This document shows, piece after piece, positions 36,568-59,387 of a DNA stretch of 64,000 bases; within the stretch, counting starts at the first letter, position 1, and each line of letters starts with the position of its first letter. The translations under genes were made by a program, and so were the position numbers. Origin of the DNA: a candidate division SR1 bacterium (GTDB lineage Bacteria > Patescibacteriota > Gracilibacteria > Absconditabacterales > Absconditicoccaceae); NCBI GenBank assembly GCA_026397475.1, contig JAPLUT010000006.1, positions 1-64,000 of the forward strand. The letters run 5' to 3'. The notes under the pieces are model-generated. The model searched no databases. It saw only the letters and a list, made by a program, of their open reading frames with translations, and was not told where the DNA came from.

Positions 36568-39500
36568 ATGGACAAAAAAATTAATCCGAATTCTTTTATT
36601 ATTCAATCCTTACAGTCTGAGGTTTCTTCGGCGACACCTTTTTCTCGTATTCCTTGATTTATAAAAAAATTTGCGATAACTCAAGAAAATAAAGAAAAAA
36701 TAATTTCTATTCTTTCCTCTCTCGGGGATAAAGAAATCGAGCATTTGGATATGAGAATCCTGAAGATAAAGAATCCCAAAAATGTTTTTGATCCAGAAAT
36801 GTATAACAAAATTCTCCAAATAGAATGATCTCAAGATGAAAAATGAAGGCCTATTTATTCTAAACTTATAGGGCTTGCAAAAGAAATTATCGCGAGTGAA
36901 ATGGGCGTTCCTGTGTATGAAATACTTAAACATATTAAGGCTGATTTGGGAACATGAACTATAGATTCTTCTGAGTTTGATAATCCTCATGATGATCTTT
37001 CCGAGAGTTTTTCTGAAGAAGAAAAAAAGTTAGTAGAACAAGAACAGCAGGCGAGAATTGTTATGAACGCGCTTATTATGGGTGCGGGACATAGGATATT
37101 TGATAAGGTAGAATCAGATGATAAATATCCCAAAGCTATCAATAAAATCAGTCCTGATCTCTATCAGTCCTATTATGATATGGTGTATACCAATCTTAAG
37201 TATATGCGAGAGACAAAGCCTGCTAATCACTCGTCAGGAAATACAGGATCAATGAAATTAGTTACAGAAGAAAAAGAGACGAAGATAAAAATTCAAGCAG
37301 ATATTTTTCCTGTTCTTTTGCATGAAATGGCAAAAGGAGTCGTCGAATATATGGCGTATACGAGGTATAATTCATTAGATCCGAAAATCACTAAGTCTAT
37401 TCTTTCTGTCGATTCTCGTCAGTCTGAACACTGGATGATGTTGATAGGACCGCAGATTTATAAGCAATTATTTTTTCTTATCAAAGAAGCGGTTGCGCAG
37501 TATAGCGACCAAAAGTGACTTCTGGACTCTAAAAACGCAGCTGATTATATTGTTCCTGTGCTTGCTCATATTTTGCAGATGCCAGCAGAAAAGTTTTTGC
37601 AATTTATAGAAAATATTTTGAGAGAAGATCAGTGAGGAGAAAGTCCGATCGCATTGATTACAAAAGTAATAGATGGTATGCACACTCAGTATGAGGCATA
37701 TCTCGCGTCTACTCCTTCGCCAAAAATGGAATTGACCATAGAAAAGATTATGGAACAGCTGACTCGTGAATTAGCTTTGTGAAAAAAAGCTCAGATGTAT
37801 ATCAAATCTGCATTGCCTGATGTACAATATAAGCTTAAAGATAAATGATATGTCTTGTCTGATAAAAAACTTGGAAGAAAAATTGCTGAACATTATATGG
37901 CAAACACAAAAAAGTTTGAATTGTCTGATTTTGTAGATCAGACTTGGGTTATTGAACTTTGAGATGCAATTAGTTTATTCAAAACTACGAGAATAGAGCA
38001 AGCTGCTTTTAGTATCGTACATGAACAGCAAAAGAAATTTCCTAAACGAACGAGAACGCATGATGTAGAAAATATCTATATTCATCCGAGATTTCCTTTG
38101 TCTGCCCTTGAAGAAGCTAAAAAAAATATTCATCCCCAAGTGCTTGAAGATATTGATAATCAGGTTGCTGAACTTGTTCAGAACTGAAGTATTTCGCAAT
38201 GGCTTCAAGATCATGACACGATGAATACAACATTGAGTACGCTTACAAAAAAATATATTACTCTGGATGATGTCATTCCGGATTGCCTTGTAGAACGAGA
38301 GGATAATCGATGACTGTATGAACTTACTAATCTTGAACAACTCAAAAGAGAGGCGGGAGTGATGGGTTGAAACTGTGTAGCAGGATCTATAGATCGTGTT
38401 GAAAATGGTACTTTGAGAGTTTTCTCGCTTCGTCACTGAACGCAGTCTCACTGGACCATTTGATATGTTCCTCAGAGTCAGACTATCAACCAAGTAAAAT
38501 GATATATCCATCAGAAAAAAAATGCTATACTAACAAGAGATGATCCTGATTACGTTCAGGTTGTACAGGCAGTAAATTATCTTATTGCTCATTTTCCTGT
38601 CAAAGCTGTAAATGATATGAGCAACGTTGGTTTTAACTTAACAAACAAGTGATTTTTGTCTTCTGCTGATTTTATAAAGGCTGTTAATGAATGAAAGCTT
38701 TATTCTGTTACTTTGCTTACTCAATGAGCTAGAATATATTTATCTTATGAAGATATTCATATTCTTGAAAAATTAAGTTTAAGAAATATAGGCTTCATAG
38801 ACGTTCAAGTTTGATCTTTCCTGATCAAATATGGTGTTGTAAATAATAAAGTAGAAACTACTTTTGTTGATGAAAATATTAATCTCAATGATTTAGATCA
38901 TTTATCTTTGTCTTTAGAGTCCTGAAATGATGTATTTACAAAAATATGACCCGTTACTTGATGTCTTTTAACTATGAAGAAGCATCCGTTTTTTGATGCA
39001 TATGATGACTATCCTGTTTTTTGATTGCCTGGACTCTGAGATGACAGGGGATTGGTCCAAAAAGGTAAAAAATATGGAGTAGTAGAAAGAGATGGAGAAT
39101 CCTTCAAAGAAATACTTCCTTGTGAGTATGATGAAGCTCCGCAATTTTGATTAGCTGGTTTGGAAGCTGATGAGGCAGTAGTTATACAAGATAAAAAATA
39201 TGGTGTTATTAAGCTAACCGAATCTTCTTTTACGGTAATATTGTCTTGTGAGTATGATGAAATTCCTCAGCTTCAGTGACTAAGAGCAGGTGAAGTTTGA
39301 GTAAAAAAATATTGAACTTATGGAATCATAAAAAAGATTGATGGAGAGTGGAAGGAGATTTTGCCTTGTGAATATAATTCTTTTCCTGTTTTTTGAACAT
39401 CTGGATTGGCTTCAAATGAAGCTCGAGTTAAACATATAGATAAGCTTCCTTTTTATAGTCATAATGGCTACAAATTTATCCTTATCCAAAGAAATGGAGA

Positions 39501-42009
39501 TGAATTTACAGAAAAATTTTCTTGTGAATACAATAAGGCTCCTGCTTTTTGAACTCCATGATTAGCTGCAAATCAAGCTTGGGTTGAGTTATGAGAAGAT
39601 AACAACTTAAGATACGGAATCATCCAAAAAGACTGAGATGTTTTAAAAACAGTATTAGATTGTAGGTATGATACTCCTGAGCTGCTCTGAATGAATTGAA
39701 TGAAGGCTGTAGACGAAAATTCATTTCATGAAGCTCGAGTAAAGAGGGATTGAAAATATTGAGTTATAAAAAATATTGAGGGAGTCTGAGTTGAGATCTT
39801 GCCTTGTAAATATACAAGTTTGCCAACTTTTTGAACAAACGGAAGGCTTAATACCACATGAGGATTAGCAGAAAATGAGGCACGGGTACACGATGGTTCT
39901 CTGCGTCCATTTGGAGATCATTATGGAATCCTTAAGAGAGAGGGATGTGTTTTTACAGAAATCTTGCCTTGTGAATATGATGTCGCATCTATTTTTTGAG
40001 CTCCTTGATTGGCTGACAACGAGGCACGAGTGCAGAAGAATAAGCTGTATTGAATCATTAGAAAAGAAAATGGAATATGTACGGAAATATTGCCTTGTGA
40101 GTACCAGAGTACGACTCTTTTTGAAGAAGACTTGTTGGCAGAAGATACTTATGTCTTACAGAAAGAATGACATCATTGTATTGTAAAAAAACTCCCTAAA
40201 TTTGGTACCGGCATAGGAAAACAAATTAAGATGAAACGTGATGGAGAGACCTGTGTCTGGAAACAGAATCATGATGGAACTTGGGATGAGGTATCCTTTA
40301 AAAAATATTACCGCATGTATTATGGCAATGTACCAAGTCCCGAATCTAAGTGATTGCGTAGTGATGAAATTTTGGTACAAGAAAACAATTATTGAATTGT
40401 TAGAGATACTGGAAATTGAACTTTTATGGAAATCTTGCCCTGTGTATATTTAAATCTTCCTCGCTTTTGAGTTCACTGATTGTGACCTAGAGAAGCTATT
40501 GCAGATAAGGTTGTTGATGGAGAATCAAAATATTGAATTATTAAAATACATGAAGACAATACGGTTGAGGAAATTCTGCCTTTTGAATATTTTCGTATCA
40601 TTCATGTTTGACCTAATTCTTCTTATGTTATTGTCGAAGAGTTTGATAGACTTGAAGAGGTTGAAATGTTTAATCAGTATAAAAAAGTTGAAATATCAAT
40701 TACGCGTGATTCTGTTGTGAAAAAAAATGCTCAGGGAAAACGAGAAAAATTTTTCCACAAAACTTATGATGAGATCTTACAGTTTGCTGTAATAGGCTTA
40801 TGAACTAATGAATCCATTGTCCGTGAGAAATGAGAATTGAAACTTATCCGTAGAGATGAAAATGAGGACGTCGTCGTTCCTTCTGATTATATTATGAGAG
40901 ATTTTGGAAAATTTGGTTTGAAAGAGGGTGAGGCATGGGCGAAAAAGAAATGAGGAGGAATGGGAATTATAAAGAGAGATGCATCAGGAAATATTAAGGA
41001 GCTTCTTCCTAGTTATCAAGCCATTGGAGCTTTTTGAGAATCGGGATTGAAAGACGATGAGGCTATCGTAAGACGTAGCTGAAATAGAAATAAATGATAT
41101 TTTTGAATCATTAAAAGAACAAAAAACTGATTTAAAGAAATTCTTCCTTCTAAGTATTATGTTATTCATCCTTTTGGAGAAGATTGAATTGCTCCTGATG
41201 AGGCACGAGTACAAGAAAAAGAGGGTGGTTATTATATCCTTATACGTAGGACAGAAAAATGATTTAAGGAAACTGGATTTTCTTCTTATGAAAAAATAAA
41301 GTTTGATTTTGGGAGATATGGATTGCTTTTAAATGAATCTTTTTTGCGTGCTGATTATCGAAATAATCAAGATCATCTTGCAGCAGTTGGACTTGTTAGA
41401 AAAAATGTCGATGGCTCTTATGAAACCTTGTTTTCTCAAGACTATTACTTTGAAATAAAACATGAAAGACTCGGATTGTTGAATAATCAATATAGAATGG
41501 AATGTGAAGATGTTAAGGGTATTGAAGAAGATTGAGATGGATATCTTCACAAAATAGTTACCAGAAATCCAGACGGTTCTCGAAGCGAGCAGCGAGAAGT
41601 TCTTAGAGATAAAAGAAGGCTTTTTGATGGAGAATATAGAATAAAAAAATACGATACGGAGAGAGCTGATTGATGTACGCATAGAATACGTTCTAGGGAT
41701 TTTGGCAATTCCTCTCATAATTTGCGACATACTACTGACGTCAAACTTTCTAAGAATGGATATGGGTCTTGGAACGATTATCATCTCTTAGAATATGCTG
41801 ATCCTTATCAAAAAGGAGTGATCTGTAAAATAATTGTCGAGGTTGATCCTCGTCATAATTCTTCACGAGAACCCGTAGAGGTTGATGAAGTAGAATTTGA
41901 AAAGTATTGCGCTCGAGAAGAAAAGAATTTTATTGATGAAGAACTCTATCGTAAGGAAGAGTGATCTTTGGATGAACAGGAATATTTTCCACAAGAAATA
42001 GTTTATTAA
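36568..42009 (+). CDS. giant WG-like repeat protein, 1813 aa
   Basis: A 5.4-kb frame with very many TGA glycines and no TAA/TAG until 42007. Residues 1-590 are helical and charged. Around 600-660 GGNCVAGSIDR, SLRHGTQSHWTI and IHQKKNAIL resemble the PcfJ-like domain of mobile elements (tentative). From about 800 to 1610, a unit of 38-55 residues recurs about twelve times: YGIIKK, EILPCEYD, FG--GLA--EARV. It resembles WG/KWG beta-repeats, with TGA often coding the Gly of FG and YG. No signal peptide is seen. Repeats of this kind commonly mediate binding; the ligand is unknown. It lies between the AAA+ ATPase and two small anchored proteins. Confidence 0.8.
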
Positions 42010-42022
42010 ATACATAAAATAG

Positions 42023-42059
42023 CTCTCCATAAAAAATCTATTTTGGGGAGTTTTTTTTT
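42023..42059 (+). terminator. terminator after the giant repeat protein
   Basis: CTCTCCA (42023-42029) pairs with TGGGGAG (42044-42050) with one G-T wobble, then nine T. It lies 14 bases after the TAA. Confidence 0.65.
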
Positions 42060-42132
42060 ATAATAAATTGATTTTAATAATAAAAAGACTAAAGTTTCTC
42101 TACTACTTATTTATTTTTTTATAGAATATCTC

Positions 42133-42453
42133 ATGAAAAAGATTTTTTGGACTACTGTTTTTTGGCTTGTAGTGTTTTTCTGATTTGGATTGTATATCAA
42201 AATGTTTGATGCAAATATGGCCGTTGGTATAAGTACTTGGCTTGGAGCAACTACCGTTACTACAAGTGGACAAGCAATATCTTCTACAACAACGGGAACG
42301 GATACTATGGGTGAATTCGCTGCTATTCAGACAAGACTTATTGATATGCAGACTAAACTTGACGCTTTGATCGCTTGATCGACTATAACTCCTGTCGTGA
42401 CTCCTGATACAACTGTTGTTGCTCCTTCAAAAGTTACAGGAACAGGGAATTAG
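42133..42453 (+). CDS. membrane-anchored Thr-rich protein, 106 aa
   Basis: The N-terminus MKKIFWTTVFWLVVFFGFGL is a basic start plus one transmembrane helix, followed by a Thr/Ser/Ala-rich exported part with a short helical segment (FAAIQTRLIDMQTKLDAL). The head is related to that of the next gene (MKKIFWTSIFWFVVIF, then LFD). It therefore looks like a paralogue whose C-terminal domain was lost or never gained. No known family. Confidence 0.68.
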
Positions 42454-42509
42454 ATATTAAAACTTAGATATTAGAGCTTAGTTGCTCATTTATAATGTTA
42501 TTATCTTCT

Positions 42510-43187
42510 ATGAAAAAAATCTTTTGGACGAGTATCTTTTGGTTTGTCGTAATTTTTTTGTTTCGATCGTACATGAGGTTGTTTGATAGGCCGCTTGGAA
42601 GAGAGATAGGTTGATGGTTTGGCGTATCTCAACAGGTGTGTTTGACGGGAGGCGTAGCTACGGGACTTACAGATCAGTTTGATGCAATCAAAATGCAGCT
42701 TGATATCATAAATCAAAAACTTCAATCTGAACCTGAGACGACACCCCCACCTTCTTCGCAGGTATCCTTATTTCAGACTGCTATTCCAACTAAAGTCGCT
42801 TTGTATTATTTTAATCAGACAGAAGACCAAAAATTAGCTCCCGCACAACAAATAAATATTTCTTCTCTTTTGCCTGTGTATCGTATGTTTCCTGCAAGTA
42901 AAGATATTCTTGTAGATGCCATCAATGAATTACTCAAGGGTAATCTTACAGCAAATGAAAGAAAAAACTGATTTATGACAGAATTTCCTAATAAGGACTT
43001 TACATTACTTTCTTCTGACTTGTCTTCTGACGGGATATTAACTCTTCAATTTTCAGAAGTTCCTGGATTTACAGACGGAGGATCAGCTCGTATACTATTA
43101 CTTTCAAATCTTATTAAAAAGACAGCATTGCAATTTCCTGGCGTAAAGGAGGTTGTTTTTACTCCTGAAACGCTTTTCCAGCCTTAA
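42510..43187 (+). CDS. membrane-anchored GerMN-domain protein, 225 aa
   Basis: An N-terminal helix (FWTSIFWFVVIFLF) is followed by a linker and a C-terminal GerMN-like domain: KVALYYFNQTEDQKLAP, SLLPVYRMFP, VDAINELLKGNLTANE, FPNKDFTLLSSDLSSDG and FPGVKEVVFTPE. In Bacillus the domain is found in GerM and in other exported envelope proteins. It was probably exported to work at the cell surface. The gene reads on from the 42133-42453 paralogue, 56 bases apart, and a terminator follows. Confidence 0.78.
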
Positions 43188-43244
43188 AATGAGTACAAAG
43201 TAGAAAGTACAAAGTAGAAAGTAGAAAAATGGCTGTATCTAGCT

Positions 43245-43289
43245 AAAAAAGACGTGAAAATCTCTCAAAGATTTATTGCGTCTTTTTTT
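43245..43289 (+). terminator. terminator with nested hairpin
   Basis: AAAAAGACG (43246-43254) pairs with CGTCTTTTT (43279-43287); inside, AAATCT/AGATTT form a second stem. It lies 58 bases after the GerMN gene. Before it (43190-43230) short words AAAGTAGAAAGTA repeat in tandem. Confidence 0.7.
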
Positions 43290-43367
43290 GCTTTTTTTTG
43301 AAAAATGGTTATAATAGAAAGGTGAAAGTTATTGCTTATTAACTTTTAGTTATTAGTTAGTTTATGT

Positions 43368-46300
43368 ATGGCAGATAAAAAAAGAAAATATCCTAAACCT
43401 ACTGATCGTGATCAGCAAAAAAATCGTGAATCTCATTCTCCCAAAAATAATATTTCGGATATTTTTTTGAGTCAGATAAAAGATGCTTTTGAGGGATTTA
43501 ATAAAATTCCTGAACAGGAAAGAGCGGAACTTTATGGTAATCAAAAATACTTAGAACAATTTTGGGAATATTTTAAGCAAGAGCATTCTAATTTGCTTGA
43601 TAGAATAGATCAAAAAGATTTGCCAAGATATATCAAGGCTATTGAAGATCAATGATTCTCGCTTGCTACTGTCCAAAAGAATGCCGGAAAACTTTCTGCT
43701 GAATTTAAGTCTGAAGACACTGAACAACACGTTATGGAGCATAGTTTAAAACAACTTCAAGACTTTTGTGAAAATGAAAATAATCAGATTCCTCAGGGAA
43801 CATTTAAAAAGTTTGCTGATGCCGCGTGATTTTCTTATGCCAGCTTACTTATTTCCTCTGATGGAAAGTTTAAAAATATAGATGATATCTCTCCTTTTTG
43901 GAAAGCATTTATTGAAAAAGAGGCTATTACTATTTCTGATTCTTCAGCTGAGACTATTGAAAATATTTTGAATCCGAACTATAATCCAACGGAAAGAATA
44001 ATGGTGAGTGTCCTTCTTAGTAAGATAAAAAAAATATTTACGTGATCCTTGAGATCTGCATTTGATGCAAAATTTTCTTTGCCGATTAGTATCTTTGTCC
44101 CTTATCAAGATCTGCTTGGTTTTAGAGATGAGTGGAGAATCTTCATTGCTGATCATGCTTCTGAAATTGATGAAGCTTTGGCAAAGCAACTTGATGCTCT
44201 CGTTGTGACCAATTGAGATATTCAACAATGACTTTTTTCTTCTCTGAGAAAAACTGATACAAGCAAATGATTTTCTGAACAAGAAAGGTATTTTAGAAGT
44301 ATTTTTAACTCGTTTGTAACTCGTCAGTTGTTTGAAGAGGTCCAAACAACTCAAGAAACTATTGATCATTATTTGGAATCTATAGGAAATACTTTTAAAG
44401 AGTTCCCTCCTTACGTTAATGATATTTTTACTCTCTATCCTTTTGATGCTGCTCGTATTGATTCGGTAGATTCTTCTTTTGTTTCTGATTTAAATACTAT
44501 TGATTTGCAGCTTGCTGATTTTCAAAATCAGTATAATTCAGCTCCTGAGTCAGAAAAAAAAGAGATTAGAAAAAAGATAAAAAACTTAAAACAGGAAAGA
44601 GAAAATCGTAAATGGCATGCATATATAGCTTTTCTTGAAACAAAGAATCCCTCATTGGCTACTGTGTTTACGCATTTATTAGAAAATAAATTTAATTTTG
44701 CATCATTGTCTGCTGATCAACAGCAGTTTATTGTTAGCTTTTTTGTAAAAAATAAACTTGAAGATACTATAAAAAACAAGGTTCCAGAACTGCTTGCTGT
44801 GGACGAAGTGGCGATTACAAAATTTATGACAGATCTTTTTGATCTTAAAAAAATGGATCTCACTCTTCCCACCAAAGATGGTCCTGTGCCTCTTTCTTTT
44901 GTCAAAAAAGAATTTTTTGCTAGCGCACATAAACAGTTGATAGGGATTAATGATTTAGAAGACATAAAAAATTTACCACTTAATTTTGTGGCACAACTTA
45001 CAGACAATAATGCGGCATTTTTTGAAGAAAGTGCTATATTTGATTCGATATATACTGATTTCGTTCCAAGAAATAACAAAGTAGTGCGTATCAATGATTC
45101 TTACAAGGTACTTCTTAAAAAGGATTGAAAGACTGCTGAAGGATATCTTTCTGCCTATTCTCCGATTGATGAACAAAATCAAGAAAATCCTCATCAAAGA
45201 GAGGGCGATGGAAAAGAATTGTATTTATATTCAGAACCTATTACTTCTCCTAATCAACAAAGACAAATAGTTTCTCGAAATGATTCTGATCCTAGAGCAA
45301 CAAAAATTCCTGTCGTGATTAGACCTAATCAGCAACAAGAATGTGATATAGAAATATTGGATAAAAAGCTCAATATTAATGGTGACGCTTTTGGTGCATT
45401 ATTACTGGGATATGTCCTTGGGCAACAAGATCTTGCAGATAAAATCTCTCCTGAAAAAGAGGAAGCTTTAGCAGAAAAGCTAGGTAAACTTAATGTATAT
45501 AAAGACAAAGAGGATATCGAGGAAAGTGAGGAAGGAAGAGAGGAAACGAAAGAGGATGATGGATCAAAAATAGAAAAGTCAGAAAAAGAAAAGTTTATGA
45601 ATGAGCGAAAACAACTTAAATGACATGGTTTTCCTGAACCACAATATAAAGATAATTTTGGTTTCGTGAAGTGAACAAGGTTATTTACTCCTTTTGCAGA
45701 TAGTGAGGTTCCTCCTATGCAGGGAAAGGCGTGGTTGCAAATGGAGATCGTTGATATCAATTCAGATAAAGAAACATTTACTGTAAAAATTCATTGAGGT
45801 GAATTGCGTTTAGGAAAAAATGAATGAGCGAAAAGAGAGTTTTCTATGAATGGACAGACGCTCTCTACCATAAAGTCTATTTTTTGAGAGGCGATATATA
45901 AGATTCCAGATACTTCTAAAACCACCTTTGATCAGCAAATGAATATTTTAAATGGTTGATGATCCGGTATTGATGGATCTGAAAAATATTTTTGATCAGT
46001 AAAATTTGATTGATCTAAGTTTGTATATTCTCTCTGAAATTATGCAGGAAAAGAAATTACTCATTTTGGTTTGTATCAGCCTAAAGCCGTAGATGAAGAT
46101 ATTGCCAATCAGACAGGACAGTTGATTCTTTATAAAATAAAACACAATCCAAATGGTACCGTAACTGTCTCTGGAGATTCTATGGACGGAAATTCTGCCA
46201 AAAATTATCCAGCTCGTGACATGGATTATACTACGTTTATGATTTTTATAAAAGAGAAATGATTGCAACCAAAATGTAAGGAACAGCTTGACGCGATTAA

Positions 46301-48596
46301 TCCTAAAGATCTTAAGGATAAAGAAGTTCCTACAACCGTTCGTGGTTTTAGTATCAACAATGTCGTGAACTTTTTCAAAAGTTCATTTAATAAAATAAAT
46401 GACGGTATCAAAAAATATGATGAAGAAAGATCTGAAGAGCTTACTGATATCTTGACCAATCAAGGGCAGCTTTGGGGTAAGATTTGATGATTGTTCGGTC
46501 CTTTTGATAGAGTAGCCTCATCTTTTGAGTCTATGGGAATGGACTATTATCTCGCGAGAGATAGCAGAATATGGAAAAAGGTTGATACCTGGGTTAAATT
46601 TTATGAAGATTACGATTATACTAAACTCTATAACGAGGTTATTTGACCTATGCTTGATGGAAAAATAAAAATACATCCTCATTACAAGATAGCCGCAATT
46701 TTATTGGTTCATCTAAAGAAAGGAAAGTGACCCTATGCAAAAAATCTTTCTACTACTGACGGCAAACGAGTCTGAATGATTCTTTGAAAGTCTCATCAAC
46801 AAAGATATCTCGCTATTAGAGAAAAGAAAATCAGAGAACTTGAGGAAAACGCCCATATCTATGGGGGTCCTTGGGCTGATCAAATTAAAAATGAACTAGT
46901 CGAATTGGAAATGAGATATATGGTACATGTCATGGATGCAAGACATATGTGATCATGAGATCCAGATAAATATTATTTTCAATCTAAATATTCTCAGAAG
47001 TTTGTCGGTGAGTTAGAAGGTGCATATACTTCGTTTTTTAAACAAGATGGAGTAAATGAATGATTTAGTAAAAATCAAGATGCGAATTTTGAATTTGCTA
47101 CGGTAGAGTATTTTAGACAACTCTCAGATAGGCCACAACAAGCACTTCCTTTTCTTAAAGTTATGGCTACCAAAGCTATTAATGATACACAATGGCAGGT
47201 TTTCGAATCTGCAGTTTTGGCAGGTATTCTTTCTGGAGTATTTCTTAATATGACTTATTCTTCAACGCAGTCCTACATTCAAAAAATATGCAGAACGAGA
47301 TGATTTGTTCCGGGATTGTTTGCAAAAGACATCAAGCAACAATCTAAGATGCAAAGACTTTTGGATTTGTTTAGCGGTGGGGAGTTTAGTAAAAAAACAA
47401 GCTATAATCCGGCTGATTACTCTTTTAGAAATAACAAATGACCTAAAAAATTTATTGAAACATTTAAAAATCGAACTGGCGCTAATATTAAAATGAAGGC
47501 TGATGGACATACTCGTGAGTGAGTAGTCAGAAATGAAATGAGTGCTTTCTTGGATTTGACAGGAAAAAATGTCGATGGGAAAACTTTACTGGATTTACAT
47601 TCTGATCCCAAAACTTCTGCTTCAGATAAAATATTACTTGAAGAATATATCAAAAAATCTAACGAACAAAATGAAACTCTCGATCATGAGGTGAGCGATA
47701 ATACATCTTCTTTGACCTGATCTATTCTTACAAAGAGTCAGAGTGTGGTCGATAAAATGATTAAAATCAATGAAGAATGATTTGCCGCAAAAGACTGAGA
47801 TGAAAAACAAAATATGCAGGCCTTCTCACAAGAAATGGAAAATGTTATCCCACAAAAAAAACTTGGTTCTTCTGAACAAATTAAATTTTTCTTAGGAAAA
47901 TTCTTTAACTGGTTTGGAGAAAGATTTTCTTGAAGTAAAAAAATAGAACTCTTAAAGAGATTGAAATGGTGTAATGATCCTGCCAATGTCTGAACACAGG
48001 ATGCTAATGATATTTTATATTACAGTATAGTATGAGAAATCATTCAATCATTATCCTCTCGTGATACAAATCCTCCTCATGAACTCTTGTGAGCATTGGA
48101 TGCTTGGAAGAACTTTTTCAAAAACAATCTTGATACAATAATTCATAATGATGACGTCCTTACTTCAGCGTTTGGTATTCAAGCTAAGACTGATCTAGAT
48201 AAATATACTCCACAGTTGGAGTCCTGGGAAACTGCTACTCCGCTTTTGGATAGAGAGGAAAGTATGCTGTATTTGACTACTCTTGGTAAGGAGCAAAAGG
48301 CTATGGCAATGCAAAAGAAGCGTACTATGAGTAATACTAATAGTAATTATCTTAATAAACCCCTTTATGACTTGGCTGAACGTCTTGCAATGAAGTGTTC
48401 ATGATTTTCTAATCGTTTTAAGAAAGACGTCCGTGCATATAAAAAAGATAAATATATCCCTAAGGCGACTTGAGCTAAAATTAACAATCCTGAAACCATA
48501 GAACAAATTAAAAGAATTCTTGAGGGTAAACCGCCTCTGGAAGATGATAATGTGCCTGAATATCCTAGTGAATTTGATGATCGTTATTGATTCTAA
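43368..48596 (+). CDS. giant hypothetical protein, 1742 aa
   Basis: A single 5.2-kb frame with many TGA glycines and no in-frame TAA or TAG. The N-terminus is basic (MADKKRKYPKPTDRDQQ), with no signal peptide or membrane helix. Most of it is helical and charged; about residues 700-740 contain an acidic/Lys low-complexity stretch. A beta-rich region lies around 770-960, and the C-terminal third is helical with large charged runs. I recognise no domain. It is the last member of the block after the AAA+ ATPase and the giant WG-like protein; related giants are known in candidate-phyla genomes, where cell-contact roles are suspected. Confidence 0.8.
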
Positions 48597-52448: not shown

Positions 52449-52811
52449 ATGGTATTCGCAAAAAAAGTTACTAAAACACCTGCTGTGATGGTGGAAACAA
52501 AAAAAATGACAGCAAAAGATAATTGTGGTATGGGAATGTGCCCTAAAATGAAACATTTTTTTGTTATTATTCTTCTTATCGTAAACACTATTCTTCTTAT
52601 TTCAGTATTTTCTAATCAAACAAGATTAGAATCTGATAGAGTAGGAGGAAAAGATAATTACAAAATGGTTCAACAAATCTACAAATCAGATGCATTCAAA
52701 GCTCAACAAAAACAACAAATTGAACAAGCTTTGTCACAATATCAACAAGGAGCTGCTAAGCAAGCAGTACAAGCACAACCAGCTGCACAAGTTCCTGCAG
52801 TAACACAATAA
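52449..52811 (+). CDS. anchored Gln/Ala-rich protein, 120 aa (first of three related)
   Basis: A basic N-terminus with a Cys pair (NCGMGMCP), one helix (FFVIILLIVNTILLISVF) and an exported tail with VGGKDNYKMVQQIYKSDAFK and Gln/Ala repeats. The helix-to-tail pattern (N-L-L, then a GG, then a MxxQxY helix and QQQK) matches the next two proteins. It ends at TAA. No family known. Confidence 0.7.
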   Translation: MVFAKKVTKTPAVMVETKKMTAKDNCGMGMCPKMKHFFVIILLIVNTILLISVFSNQTRLESDRVGGKDNYKMVQQIYKSDAFKAQQKQQIEQALSQYQQGAAKQAVQAQPAAQVPAVTQ

Positions 52812-52835
52812 TTTTATTTTAATGATTATCTGATA

Positions 52836-53147
52836 ATGACTACAGAAACAAACAATAATCAAATGAAAATGCTTATTGTAATTCTTTTGGTGATTAATGC
52901 ATTACTTGGAATATATATTGGATTTTTCAAAAAAGATGCTCTTTGGCTAGAAACATTAAAAGCTGGAGGTGCTCAAAATATGAGCATGGCAAGACAACTT
53001 TATGCATCACCTGCATATCAACAACAACAAAAAGCTACATTGGATCAGATTTTAGGAAGCATGAACCAGGCGTGACAACAAGCTCCTGCAGTGACTGCTC
53101 AACCAGAAGCTACTTTACCGACAGCTCAACCTACAGTAACACAATAA
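52836..53147 (+). CDS. anchored Gln-rich protein, 103 aa (second of three)
   Basis: MTTETNNNQMKMLIVILLVI is a short start plus helix; then FKKDALWLETLKAGG, MARQLYASPAYQQQQKATLD and QILGSMNQAG. The whole is clearly paralogous to the N-terminus of the DsbA-fusion protein that follows (MTTEKKYNQIKMFLIGLLVL, QILGSMGK). A Pro/Ala/Gln tail ends at TAA. One TGA Gly. Probably a duplicate lacking the thioredoxin domain. Confidence 0.72.
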
Positions 53148-53174
53148 TTTTATTTTGCTAATTTGTTTGTTCTT

Positions 53175-54041
53175 ATGACTACAGAAAAAAAATATAATCA
53201 GATAAAAATGTTTCTTATAGGGCTTTTGGTACTTAATGTTTTACTTGGAATTTATATCGCATTTTTCAAAAAGGATGCGTATCGATTGGAAACATTAAAA
53301 GTTTGATGAGATGAAAATATGAATTTAGCAGTACAATTGTACAATGCTGATGCATATAAACAACAACAAAAATCTACTCTTGAACAAATATTAGGTTCTA
53401 TGGGTAAGACGGATACTACTACTACACAACCTACTGCACAAGCTCCTACAACAGCTGATACAACTGTTACTCCTATACAAGGAGATGCTACGAAGTTTGC
53501 TGCTATTGAGAAAGATTGATACATCAAAGGAAATAAAAATGCTAGAATTACACTTATAGAGTATTCTGACTTAGTTTGTCCTTTTTGTAAGAGACATTAT
53601 GAGGCACAAACTCTTGAGAAGCTTGTAGCAAAATATCCAAATGATGTAAATATGGAATTTAGAAATATGCCACTACCTCAGCTTCATCCTAGTGCTCCCA
53701 TTTGAGCTCAAGGCGCTGTTTGTGCTGGTAAACTTGGAGGAGAAAGTAAATACTATGCTTATATTGATAAGGCATTCAAAATTGAAGAATTTACTGAGGC
53801 TAATGTAACTGATATAGCAGTAGGTCTAGGTCTTAATAAATCTAAATTTGCTACTTGTCTTACAAGCGCAGAAACGCTTGCGACAGTTGCCGCTCAAGTA
53901 CAAGAAGGACAAGGCTTTGGTGTTAATGGAACTCCTGGTAATCTCGTTGTAGATAACCAAAAAGGTACGTTTACATTAATCGCTGGTGCTTATCCTATAG
54001 AAACATTTGAAGCAGAAATTGCAAAAATATTAGGTAAATAA
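53175..54041 (+). CDS. anchored DsbA-like thiol oxidoreductase, 288 aa
   Basis: An N-terminal anchor helix (about residues 11-30), a linker head shared with the two previous genes, a Thr-rich hinge (about 80-105) and a DsbA thioredoxin domain. The active site is DLVCPFCKRHYE and the cis-Pro loop is VNGTPGNLVV. The domain lies outside the membrane, where it would form or isomerise disulfides in exported Cys-rich proteins such as the pilin-like proteins seen in this window. No DsbB or VKOR is nearby. Several Gly are TGA. A terminator follows at once. Confidence 0.87.
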
Positions 54042-54100: not shown

Positions 54101-54311
54101 CTCCACGATGATGTGGAGATTTCTGTCTTACTTGCTTGCCGTATAGGAATTTCCAATTTATTCCTATAGATATAATTAACAACCAAATAATTTGAAGAAT
54201 TATTGAGTTGTTATGTACATATCATTCAATCAAAAATAAAAAATATTTTTGAAGAATGATATGAAAACGATGGGAAGATCTTTTTATCCTTTGACTACAA
54301 GTATAAAGGAT
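54101..54311. other. structured intergenic region (four hairpins)
   Basis: CTCCAC-GATGAT-GTGGAG (54101-54118; minus-strand T-run follows, so probable terminator for the ValRS-like gene), TATAGGAAT/ATTCCTATA (54142-54150 and 54160-54168), CATATCATTC/GAATGATATG (54218-54227 and 54254-54263, with inner AAAAATA/TATTTTT) and ATCCTTT/AAAGGAT (54286-54292 and 54305-54311). No ORF. The density of perfect stems suggests an RNA or termination region. Confidence 0.55.
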
Positions 54312-54321
54312 TTCCCTCATC

Positions 54322-57165
54322 TTATTTTACTTTTTGTTTTTGAAATTCATACTGAAGATTCTCTATGTCTTTTTTGAGTTTAAGCATTTCTTTCTTTTTG
54401 TCTCTAATAACTTCAGCATCTACACCGCTTGCTGAAAGACTCGGCATCATATTTCTTATTGATTGAAGTTCTTGTTCTTTTGCGCGTAAACTTTCACGGA
54501 GATCTTCTTTTTTGTTCGTACTGACTGCAATTTTACGTTCTGTTTTAATTCCTATTGTAATATTTATTATGCTTTCTGTGTGATATTTGCTGAGTTCTTT
54601 TTCATTTTCGAGATATTCTATTGATGACGCATTAATTAGTTTATAAATGATACTTTCTTGTTTTCTGAGATATTGTAGAAAATCTAGTGGAGCAAAGAAA
54701 CAGATTTCTATTTCTTCGTGTTTTGCATATGAGTACTTTAGCTTCATCTCCAAAAACTTGTCTATGATATCCATAAAAAGTTGTGTTTTGTAGTTTTTCG
54801 TGATGCTAGTGAAATGTATTCCTATTTCTTGTTTCAGTATCGGTCATTCAAACCCTAATAACTCTCGTATTTGTTGGCTTATGAATGGTATGAATGGATG
54901 TAAAAGCTTCAATATGCTGCCCAAACATCGTAATGTAACCTTACTTCCATTTTCGGTCTCTTGATGTTTCTGTATTTCTAAATATTTATCACAAAAATCT
55001 TTTTTTAGTATGCTTATCATTTTTTCTTGAGCATTATGCAGCATGTTTTTAGTTATTTCTTCTTCATAGTCTTTTTGAAGTTCGCTTGTTTTATATATAA
55101 TCCAAAGCTCAAAGTCACTTAATGCGTTCTTTCTTTTTTCTAGGAATTCGGTCAATTGCTCAAAATCAGATATTTTTCTTGTACCTTTTTTGTCATATAA
55201 ATGCTGTCCTATAAATCTTGATGCGTTTCGGAGTTTGCTTATAAACTGTTCATATTCAAGGATATCTTCATTAGGGGATATCGCATAAAGTCTTGTGCAA
55301 TCTGTTCCGTATTTTTTGATAAGCTCTTTAAATGTTTCTTTGTTTTTGTCCTTTTGTTCATTTTGAACATAACAAGTATCGAATAATGCTTTTTCTTGGA
55401 CCTTGTATCCTATGATTATAGTTTTAAGAAATTCAAAAATTTTATTTTCATGTGCGCAAAATATCTTTTTTGTTTCTTTTTTGCTTTCGCCGAATGCTTC
55501 CATGGTTTTGATTAAAATCATTGCATGTCCCAATGTTTCTTCTATTTTTTCTTTTTGTTGAACGAGTCAACTATCGTTATTTACTAAGGTATCCATATCA
55601 AATGAATAAAATCATTTTTTCTTATTTGTAATGGCTATGGATTTTTCTAAGAAATCTGTAAGTGCTATCGAAAGTTTTTCGAAATGATTCACTCCTTTCC
55701 CTTTTCCATAATCAAGATCTTTTTCTGTATATTCTACTATTTTTTTTAACTCATTGAGCTCTTTTGTATATCCTCTTGGAAGGATCTCACTAAAGAGTTC
55801 TATATATGTTTCAAGAGTGTTTTTTTCTCCTGTACGACTCTTTCCTAAAAATACATCTATACATTCTTCTATGTCAAAATTTTCCTTGAGACGTCTGTCT
55901 ACAATAAGATTAAATATAATCAAGGAAAGTACGGTGAACTTGTTTTTTGTTTTTTTCGTAGGTAAATTAAGTATTTCGTTGTCAGATAGAAAATAGTTTT
56001 TTCCTGTTTTGCTTTTCCAAAGAGGCAAACAATATCATTTTGAGTCTTCTTTGGTTACCGGTCGATATTCTATAGTATCAATCATGTTTATGATTTTTCA
56101 TTCATATTCTTCAGGGACTATGCTTATTTTTTTTTCTTGAATAGCGGCTTTAATGCTTATTGATTCTTTATCTGTTTTTATAAATAATTGATTACAAAGT
56201 ATTGGTCGTGCTCTTTCTCAGCTTTTTCTGTGAACAAAAATATCGCTCTCTATTAGTTTTGTTGATTCTAAATTATGAATATCATCCAAGTTTTTTATTA
56301 TGTTTTTTACAAATTCTTCTACTTTTTTACCACAGAAATCTCCTGCTGATTTGCTAAAAACTCCATCTTTCTCGATAGCAAAATTGTCTATTTTGAGTCA
56401 TTTTTTTTGTGCAATTACTAATGACTGTTTGTCGTGAGTTGGTGTTATTCTAATGATCCCGGTTCCTTTGGTGGGATTCACTGATTCATCCCCAATGATG
56501 GGTATTGCTTTATTAATAATTGGTATAATTACTTTATTGTTTATTAATTTCTTGTATCTCTTATCGTCTGGATGTACTGCTAGTGCAACATCAGCAAAAA
56601 TTGTTTCTGGCCATAATGTAGGTACGATGAGAGAAATGTTTTTTGTGTCTACAAAATATCTGATGTTATATTGTTTTACTTTCATCTTTTTTGATTCAAG
56701 CTCATCTGTACCAAGAGTTTTTTGTTCTTTTAAGCTTCGATAGTTGATAGAGCAGTCTTCATAAATACGTCCCTCTTGTACGAGTTCTACAAATAAATTT
56801 CTTACGAAATTTGTATTCCTTTCTGAGTAAGCAACGTTGTCGGTATCAATTCCAAAAAATATTCCTGATTTGGTAAGGAGGTTTTCATAATTTTCTGTTT
56901 TGATATTTTTATTCTCGGTATCAAAAATAGGCAATAATGTTGTTTTTATTCATTTCATTATATGGTACTTTGCGATTACGTCTTCTCTGATGATTCCGCT
57001 CATAGAATTTAATGATGTCTCCTTAGATATCATAATTGGCAATTGTGTTATTATCGTTCATCATTTATTTCCGTCCTTTTTTGTGTTGAATAGTTTTTGA
57101 AAATAGTTCTTTTTGAGTAGTTCTGATTCTATGGAAAAGTGATTGTATTTTTTTTTGATATCCAT
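54322..57165 (-). CDS. degenerate valyl-tRNA synthetase-like protein, 947 aa
   Basis: The layout is that of ValRS: an N-terminal catalytic part, an editing (CP1) domain, a helical anticodon-binding domain and a C-terminal coiled coil. The editing domain is closest to family: PTLWPETIFADVALAVHPDD, IPIIGDESVNPTKGTGI, RITPTHDKQS. But the HIGH motif region reads SKETSLNSMSGIIREDVIAK, and KMSKS is replaced by a Lys-rich stretch before KYGTDCTRLYAISPNED. WGHRIP is also lost. It is thus probably not able to charge tRNA; it may act as an editor, regulator or decoy, or be decaying. A canonical valS must exist elsewhere. Confidence 0.8.
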
Positions 57166-58874: not shown

Positions 58875-59387
58875 TTATTTACCGTGTGAAGTCATTTCAT
58901 TAAGTGATCAGATAGAAAGATTTTGCTCTGTTCAATCACTGAGTTTTACAACCGCATCACTCAATAAAATGTCTCTAATCTCTCCTGTAAAGGGCAATAA
59001 AATTATACTCTGACTCTTGTCGACGTTTTTTCCTGGTATTGATTCAATGATAAAATCATTGGCAACAGGATTGCTATATGTTCGTGTTCCTTGTCCGCTA
59101 AGATGTTCTGGATCTATTGTCACAGAATCTTTGTTGAAGCTTACTGTGAATTGTATGCTTATCGGTGTTTTTAATTCGTTTGCCATAAAGATATCAACAT
59201 ATCAGCTACTTGTCTTATATGCTATATCTCGTCATTTATTTGTGATAAAGGCTTTTTCTTGTAAAGAAAGTACGCTTGCCATAAAAAAATCTGGATTTTT
59301 TGTCACATAAAATAATCCGAGTGCTACAAAAGCTCCAGCAACAATAATTGTTATGTTTTGTTTTCGGCTTCAGAAGAGCTTACTCAT
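58875..59387 (-). CDS. anchored cohesin-like protein, 170 aa
   Basis: A helix near the N-terminus (NITIIVAGAFVALGLFYV) anchors the protein; the remainder is beta-rich with VSFNKDSVTIDPEHLSGQG and IILLPFTGEIRDILL, resembling a small cohesin-like or pilus-type beta domain. No catalytic residues. It precedes the 57210-58850 gene by 24 bases on the same strand, so the two are likely one unit, perhaps an adhesin and its partner. Gly in SDG is TGA. Confidence 0.68.

Follow-up and report, generated by a model that had tools for sequence, protein, structure and literature searches.

Analysis of a 64,000-nucleotide stretch of DNA from a candidate division SR1 bacterium (the window; its genome is designated G000) indicated that a long gene on the minus strand very probably encodes a conserved pseudo-valyl-tRNA synthetase (pseudo-ValRS) maintained by selection. 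Both active sites of the encoded protein are lost and purifying selection is present, and the retention of the gene under selection in an operon with an FN3-type cell-surface protein points to a second, putatively non-enzymatic job. The gene, its parts and its neighbours are listed in Table 1.

Table 1. Features of the pseudo-ValRS gene and of its surroundings in the window.
Feature	Position	Strand	Remark
Catalytically dead ValRS-like gene	54322..57165	(-)	947 codons, code 25 + CGA/CGG=Trp
HIGH-equivalent segment, LPIMISKETSLNSMS, residues 42-56, motif lost	56998..57042	(-)	alignment
CP1 (editing) domain, residues ~161-330, scaffold conserved	56176..56685	(-)	
TLWPET, residues 183-188, counterpart of TTRPET; E. 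coli R223 replaced by W	56602..56619	(-)	
RITPTHDKQS, residues 239-248, counterpart of KITPAHDFND; E. coli K277 replaced by R, D286 by S	56422..56451	(-)	
Degenerate counterpart of WCISRQLWWGHRIPVW, reads WPVTKEDSKGYCLPLW	56017..56064	(-)	alignment with E. coli ValRS
Family-specific helical insertion, residues ~397-530	55576..55977	(-)	common to active ValRS of sister genera
KMSKS position, residues ~602-613, motif deleted	55327..55362	(-)	alignment
Stem-contact fold and anticodon-binding domain, conserved; R625, W646, N647 and P760 in 14/14 dead representatives	54796..55308	(-)	
C-terminal linker and coiled-coil-like arm, two long predicted helices	54325..54795	(-)	including AF2 model
Terminator-like stem-loop and T run, downstream of the dead ValRS	54101..54118	(-)	
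Upstream operon gene, 546-aa Ig/FN3 multi-domain protein; N-terminal hydrophobic signal-like helix, C-terminal TM helix	57210..58850	(-)	
First gene of conserved trio, 170-aa, N-terminal hydrophobic segment, no Pfam match	58875..59387	(-)	

Read with NCBI table 25, the frame opens with an ATG at 57165 and ends with the stop codon at 54322. It contains 10 in-frame TGA codons and is open solely with TGA read as glycine; a table 11 reading breaks it up. The probability of 947 open codons at this composition is about 1e-29, which excludes chance. In the ValRS genes of the family genomes G000-G024 the conserved Trp columns, taken as in other bacteria, are occupied by TGG, CGA or CGG, and among the codons seen in the groups tallied neither CGA nor CGG stood at a conserved Arg column. 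Since the reassignment of CGA/CGG to Trp in the Absconditabacteria has been published (PMC8629427), the window protein (P0001) was read with code 25 plus CGA/CGG=Trp. NCBI table 25 by itself mistranslates the ValRS genes of the family, in which UGA=Gly and CGA/CGG=Trp are both in use.

Pfam matches to tRNA-synt_1 and Anticodon_1 were obtained with P0001, and the ValRS domains follow one another in order. The AF2 model is of moderate confidence (mean pLDDT 69), and its best PDB match is the ValRS of T. thermophilus (1gax, E 3.5e-28); the Pfam, NCBIfam and 1gax matches together identify the ValRS domain order and fold (Rossmann, CP1 and anticodon-binding). An earlier note made from the sequence alone had described a ValRS-like frame open over 947 codons with all ValRS domains in order, and both descriptions are borne out. 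The scores of the window protein are far below the curated cut-offs of the models of functional valine--tRNA ligases, namely 263 bits for TIGR00422 (cut-off 612) and 282 bits for NF004349 (PRK05729; cut-off 704). Contamination or mis-assembly was ruled out, as the window contig measures 292 kb and orthologues occur across many assemblies, including the single-contig assemblies G017 and G060.

Alignment with E. coli ValRS revealed that PPPNVTGSLHMGHA of the HIGH region is replaced by LPIMISKETSLNSMS in the window protein and that the KMSKS position reads NEQKDKNKETF, the loop being deleted. The WCISRQLWWGHR segment is absent, as are HIGH and KMSKS, so that the loss of both class I signatures and of the WGHRIP segment, first noticed on the bare sequence, was confirmed. 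Reading under a wrong code does not account for these losses: with CGA/CGG=Trp the Trp columns are recovered, whereas HIGH, KMSKS and the editing Asp are still missing.

A search for the canonical valS located a separate, intact gene of the PRK13208 type on contig C2 of the same genome (G000:C2:180711-183131). The genome search gave its product 635 bits with TIGR00422 (cut-off 612); under the correct code the scores were 733 bits with TIGR00422 and 1010 bits with PRK13208 (cut-off 738), and the product retains HIGH, KMSKS (as KISKS) and the editing Asp. The window gene is therefore not the charging enzyme, and the possibility that it is the essential enzyme misread under a wrong code was discarded. 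In the tree this charging ValRS (L001) falls outside the group made up of the other PRK13208-type ValRS of the family, those of the congeners included, and is possibly a separate acquisition.

The sample comprised 49 genomes of the family from 22 genera, and an order-level search gave the same 49. Other SR1 genomes do keep the paralogue: a dead family-type copy was found in 33 of the 49 genomes, from 12 genera, while an intact family-type ValRS with HIGH and KMSKS occurs in 14 genomes from 10 other genera; G044 and G064 were too incomplete to classify. A second, intact ValRS is carried by 32 of the 33 dead-copy genomes (in a few as a contig-end fragment only), the exception being G009, which is 73% complete, and by none of the 14 genomes with an intact family-type enzyme. 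Orthologues of the window gene show 70-79% identity in six congeners and 42% in G004, a split copy is present in G006, and dead copies occur in 11 further genera; the full-length-aligned dead copies are about 28-79% identical to P0001. Full-length frames were found in 31 of the 33 dead copies. The dead ValRS of G006 (L114:4043-7007) and of G061 (L173:1940-4635) is read as two overlapping frames, which may reflect a true frameshift, a gene in two pieces or an error of assembly.

The phylogenetic tree of the whole protein placed the dead copies on one side of a single branch (SH-aLRT 100), and the dead clade was also recovered with the CP1 and stem-contact/anticodon columns alone (SH-aLRT 98), so that the dead form has one origin; the inner order of the clade is to be read with caution owing to the long branches of G017, G020, G009 and G024. 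KMSKS is missing in all 33 dead copies. HIGH is retained only in those of G010, G055 and G056, and partly in G022, which indicates that the loss of catalysis continued in parallel after the split.

The PRK13208 type is the commonest charging enzyme in the dead-copy genomes and forms one clade, in which the genera branch in broadly the order seen among the dead copies, in keeping with co-inheritance. The charging enzyme is of the bacterial type in G005 and in genus g14, where the dead copy is still present, and full-length bacterial-type charging enzymes occur in G005, G021 and G042, again with the dead copy kept. The foreign charging enzymes measure about 800-840 aa, the valS match mostly stopping near position 790-800 of 863, and in most charging enzymes their own editing residues are intact. 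Beside the dead copy, G060 (L171:2411-5371, C1) and G062 (L172:1588-4554, C3) carry an active family-type ValRS of 989 aa. These two enzymes group with the intact family copies and were apparently re-acquired from a sister lineage, replacing the PRK13208-type enzyme seen in the congener G061. Outside the family, contigs C1 and C7 of G026 (L072, L087) encode two ValRS, one standard and the other PRK13208-like; each has HIGH and KMSKS, and the genome may represent an intermediate state with two enzymes. In G035 (700 kb, 94% complete) the TIGR00422 model detected no clear full-length ValRS.

Directly after the WGHRIP region both dead and intact family copies carry an insertion of about 110-130 aa that is absent from E. 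coli and from other families, and for which no relatives were found in Pfam or PDB. The active family-type ValRS (L022:1003-4068 and others) also bear this helical insertion. As it is common to the active enzymes of the sister genera, the dead gene is a decaying ValRS native to the family and not a foreign one. No other part of the AF2 model is predicted as well as the insertion, which is also constrained within the window genus; across genera it is less conserved than CP1, and it was wholly lost in two dead members, G054 and G059.

Of the columns that are near-invariant in active enzymes, the 14 dead representatives compared keep a fraction of 0.57 both in CP1 and in the stem-contact/anticodon part, but 0.19 in either Rossmann half. 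Residues G274, P280, L295, R615, W646, N647 and P755 (E. coli numbering) are invariant in 14/14, and other stem-contact/anticodon residues are partly retained. The editing domain had been described as close to family: this holds for the scaffold, and T183, P186, E187, T188, T241, H244 and D245 are still present in P0001, but not for the catalytic and anchor residues (R223>W, K277>R, D286>S in E. coli numbering). R223 is kept in 0/14 dead representatives and D286 is lost in 12/14 (14% keep it). N174 of the active enzymes is replaced by an aromatic residue in most dead copies, which is a dead-specific constraint. The pattern of retention suits a protein that would fold as a ValRS and contact tRNA or a similar ligand, without catalysis. 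In the fastest lineages (G017, G020, G009 and G024) few tRNA-contact residues are left beyond the core, so that the binding partner may have changed.

Among the seven genomes of the window genus the mean identity of the dead protein is 75%, and the differences at codon positions 1, 2 and 3 of its gene amount to 0.18, 0.11 and 0.47. With a pS of 0.73 the synonymous sites approach saturation, which restricts the use of dN/dS to the closest pairs; in these it was 0.105, 0.107 and 0.088 for the dead protein versus 0.075, 0.061 and 0.065 for the charging ValRS of the same genome pairs. The comparison proposed beforehand thus gives about 0.1 for the paralogue and 0.06-0.08 for the charging enzyme, and the dead ValRS is under purifying selection with a dN/dS near that of the latter. 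Every domain of the dead protein is constrained within the window genus, and in a simulation of neutral replacement 0 copies remained open at even 5% of sites. Of the two explanations offered in the earlier note, selection for a non-charging role agrees with both codon evolution and distribution, while a very young relic is rejected by the full-length dead copies in 12 genera and by the dN/dS of about 0.1.

Analysis of the neighbouring genes, with positions compared by hand, revealed that in 32 of the 33 genomes the dead ValRS lies directly downstream of the FN3 gene, on the same strand and no more than about 165 nt away; G020 is the lone dead-copy genome in which the link is broken. In the window the junction measures 44 nt and has no terminator on that strand. 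The FN3-type gene codes for a predicted secreted membrane protein with beta-sandwich domains of the Ig/FN3 type, and often follows the gene of a small protein whose N-terminus holds a hydrophobic segment; it occurs in 48 of the 49 genomes and adjoins an intact ValRS in 0 of the 13 that could be judged: in G015 both genes are on one contig with other genes between them, and they are apart in G013 and G014. The downstream neighbours of the dead ValRS vary (a DsbA-like cluster in some genera, others in G060 and G017) while the FN3 link persists. Since the dead copies form one clade, this linkage counts as one shared, kept trait and not as many independent events, and it may reflect co-transcription alone. 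A search for an autoregulatory RNA element gave nothing above the Rfam threshold at 51-61 kb, and no tRNA gene was found in the region adjoining the dead ValRS. At 52449-54041 (+) three adjacent genes encode proteins with similar short N-terminal membrane segments, the last with a DsbA/thioredoxin domain, and this cluster faces the dead ValRS in several genera. Two giant frames at 36568-48596 (+), of 1813 and 1742 aa and almost without Pfam matches, are probably large surface proteins.

We propose that a foreign ValRS, mostly of the PRK13208 type, took over tRNA charging from the family-type ValRS of an Absconditabacteria lineage, and that the displaced enzyme was then retained as a non-catalytic protein. 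The dead protein would fold as a ValRS. Its predicted ligand is a tRNA, in the simplest case tRNA-Val, or an RNA resembling tRNA, which the CP1 scaffold, the stem-contact/anticodon body and the C-terminal arm, all retained, would bind without acting on it. The role of the protein would be regulatory or scaffolding, with an output coupled to the surface-protein operon, which might for example consist in sensing uncharged tRNA-Val or in control of operon translation. A putative role in tRNA binding or regulation remains the best class of explanation, and we lean slightly towards reading the protein as a tRNA-binding regulator or scaffold. The full form of the proposal, in which a doubly dead pseudo-ValRS moved into or stayed in the surface-protein operon as a tRNA-dependent regulator or scaffold by which production of the Ig/FN3 protein would be tied to the state of tRNA-Val or of translation, is advanced as a tentative one that may well prove wrong. 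If it is true, the Ig/FN3 surface protein possibly serves the contact of these small cells with other bacteria.

An unlikely alternative is that the dead protein assists the charging ValRS as an accessory subunit or tRNA chaperone, supplying the tRNA binding by a coiled-coil arm that the PRK13208-type enzyme of about 800 aa lacks. The shortness of the foreign enzymes and the retention of the C-terminal arm and the tRNA-binding body in the dead protein agree with such a role, but the dead copy is also kept beside the full-length bacterial type (G005, G021, G042) and beside the 989-aa family-type enzyme (G060, G062), and its gene is linked to the surface operon and not to the charging valS. The charging enzyme changed type at least two times and the dead copy stayed, which argues against an obligate partner. 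It is quite improbable that the insertion, and not the tRNA body, explains the retention through a moonlighting function older than the loss of charging: the insertion is common to active and dead members, best predicted in the model and constrained within the genus, but G054 and G059 are dead members without it, it is less conserved across genera than CP1, and its equal presence in active enzymes may mean a structural role only.

Editing in trans, a role suggested in the earlier note, is disfavoured. CP1 alone would hydrolyse the mischarged Thr-tRNA-Val produced by the foreign ValRS, and CP1 is indeed among the best conserved parts, with the seven residues named above in place. Class Ia editing domains depend on an Asp that anchors the substrate; in IleRS its replacement by Ala carries a cost of about 10^4-fold, and ValRS and LeuRS have been reported to use this residue in the same way (PMC4861432). 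This anchor is Ser in the window protein and K277 is Arg, and the shared loss of the editing Asp (12/14) and Arg (14/14) among the dead representatives argues against a trans-editing factor, as does the intact editing site of most charging enzymes, so we consider it very unlikely. A pseudogene or slowly decaying relic without function is extremely improbable, for although motifs were lost by apparently independent routes, rates are high in some genera and the frames of G006 and G061 are split, the frames are full length in 31/33 copies at about 30-39% GC, where stops are frequent, codon positions 2 and 3 differ by 0.11 versus 0.47 with a dN/dS of about 0.1, and the gene persists across 12 genera in genomes of about 1 Mb.

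An essential synthetase that a foreign enzyme has displaced should disappear, the more so from reduced genomes of about 1 Mb. The displaced ValRS of SR1 has lost both sites, yet 12 genera keep the gene, with strong purifying selection on it, while the charging enzyme was exchanged more than once, and the case separates a non-charging function of ValRS from charging. Non-catalytic relatives of synthetases are already known, namely LeuRS-I, SLIMP and HisZ (PMC9437257); ValRS is unmentioned in that review of duplicated synthetases, and the literature searched, with subscription journals mostly outside its scope, contained no report for SR1 and nothing specific on ValRS paralogues. The LeuRS-I of the Sulfolobaceae resembles the SR1 case: it is a class Ia duplicate that exists beside a working synthetase, its editing domain is damaged, and it is unable to aminoacylate and is important for growth (PMC9437257). 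It differs in that it forms leucyl-adenylate and binds tRNA-Leu, while the SR1 protein is without the adenylation motifs HIGH and KMSKS; LeuRS-I is archaeal, leucyl and listed as a duplicate, while the SR1 form is bacterial, valyl and a displaced family-type enzyme. SLIMP is likewise a paralogue of a synthetase that no longer aminoacylates but still binds tRNA and has taken on a regulatory role, and HisZ is a bacterial synthetase paralogue without adenylation activity that serves as an allosteric regulator (PMC9437257). SLIMP is, however, mitochondrial and forms a heterodimer with SerRS, while binding of tRNA or of any partner by the SR1 protein is putative; HisZ belongs to histidine biosynthesis, while the SR1 protein has CP1 and the anticodon-binding domain and adjoins surface-protein genes. 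SLIMP is a class II protein, and HisZ is not known to have the anticodon-binding part. With the canonical ValRS (NF004349 PRK05729 / TIGR00422) the SR1 form shares the domain order, the CP1 scaffold, the WNASR-type stem-contact region, the anticodon-binding domain and the C-terminal arm, but it is without HIGH, KMSKS, WCISRQLWWGHR, R223 and D286 and scores far under the cut-offs. The dead copies provide a natural series from synthetase to non-enzyme, with HIGH present in G010, HLGN in G022 and nothing in the window genus.
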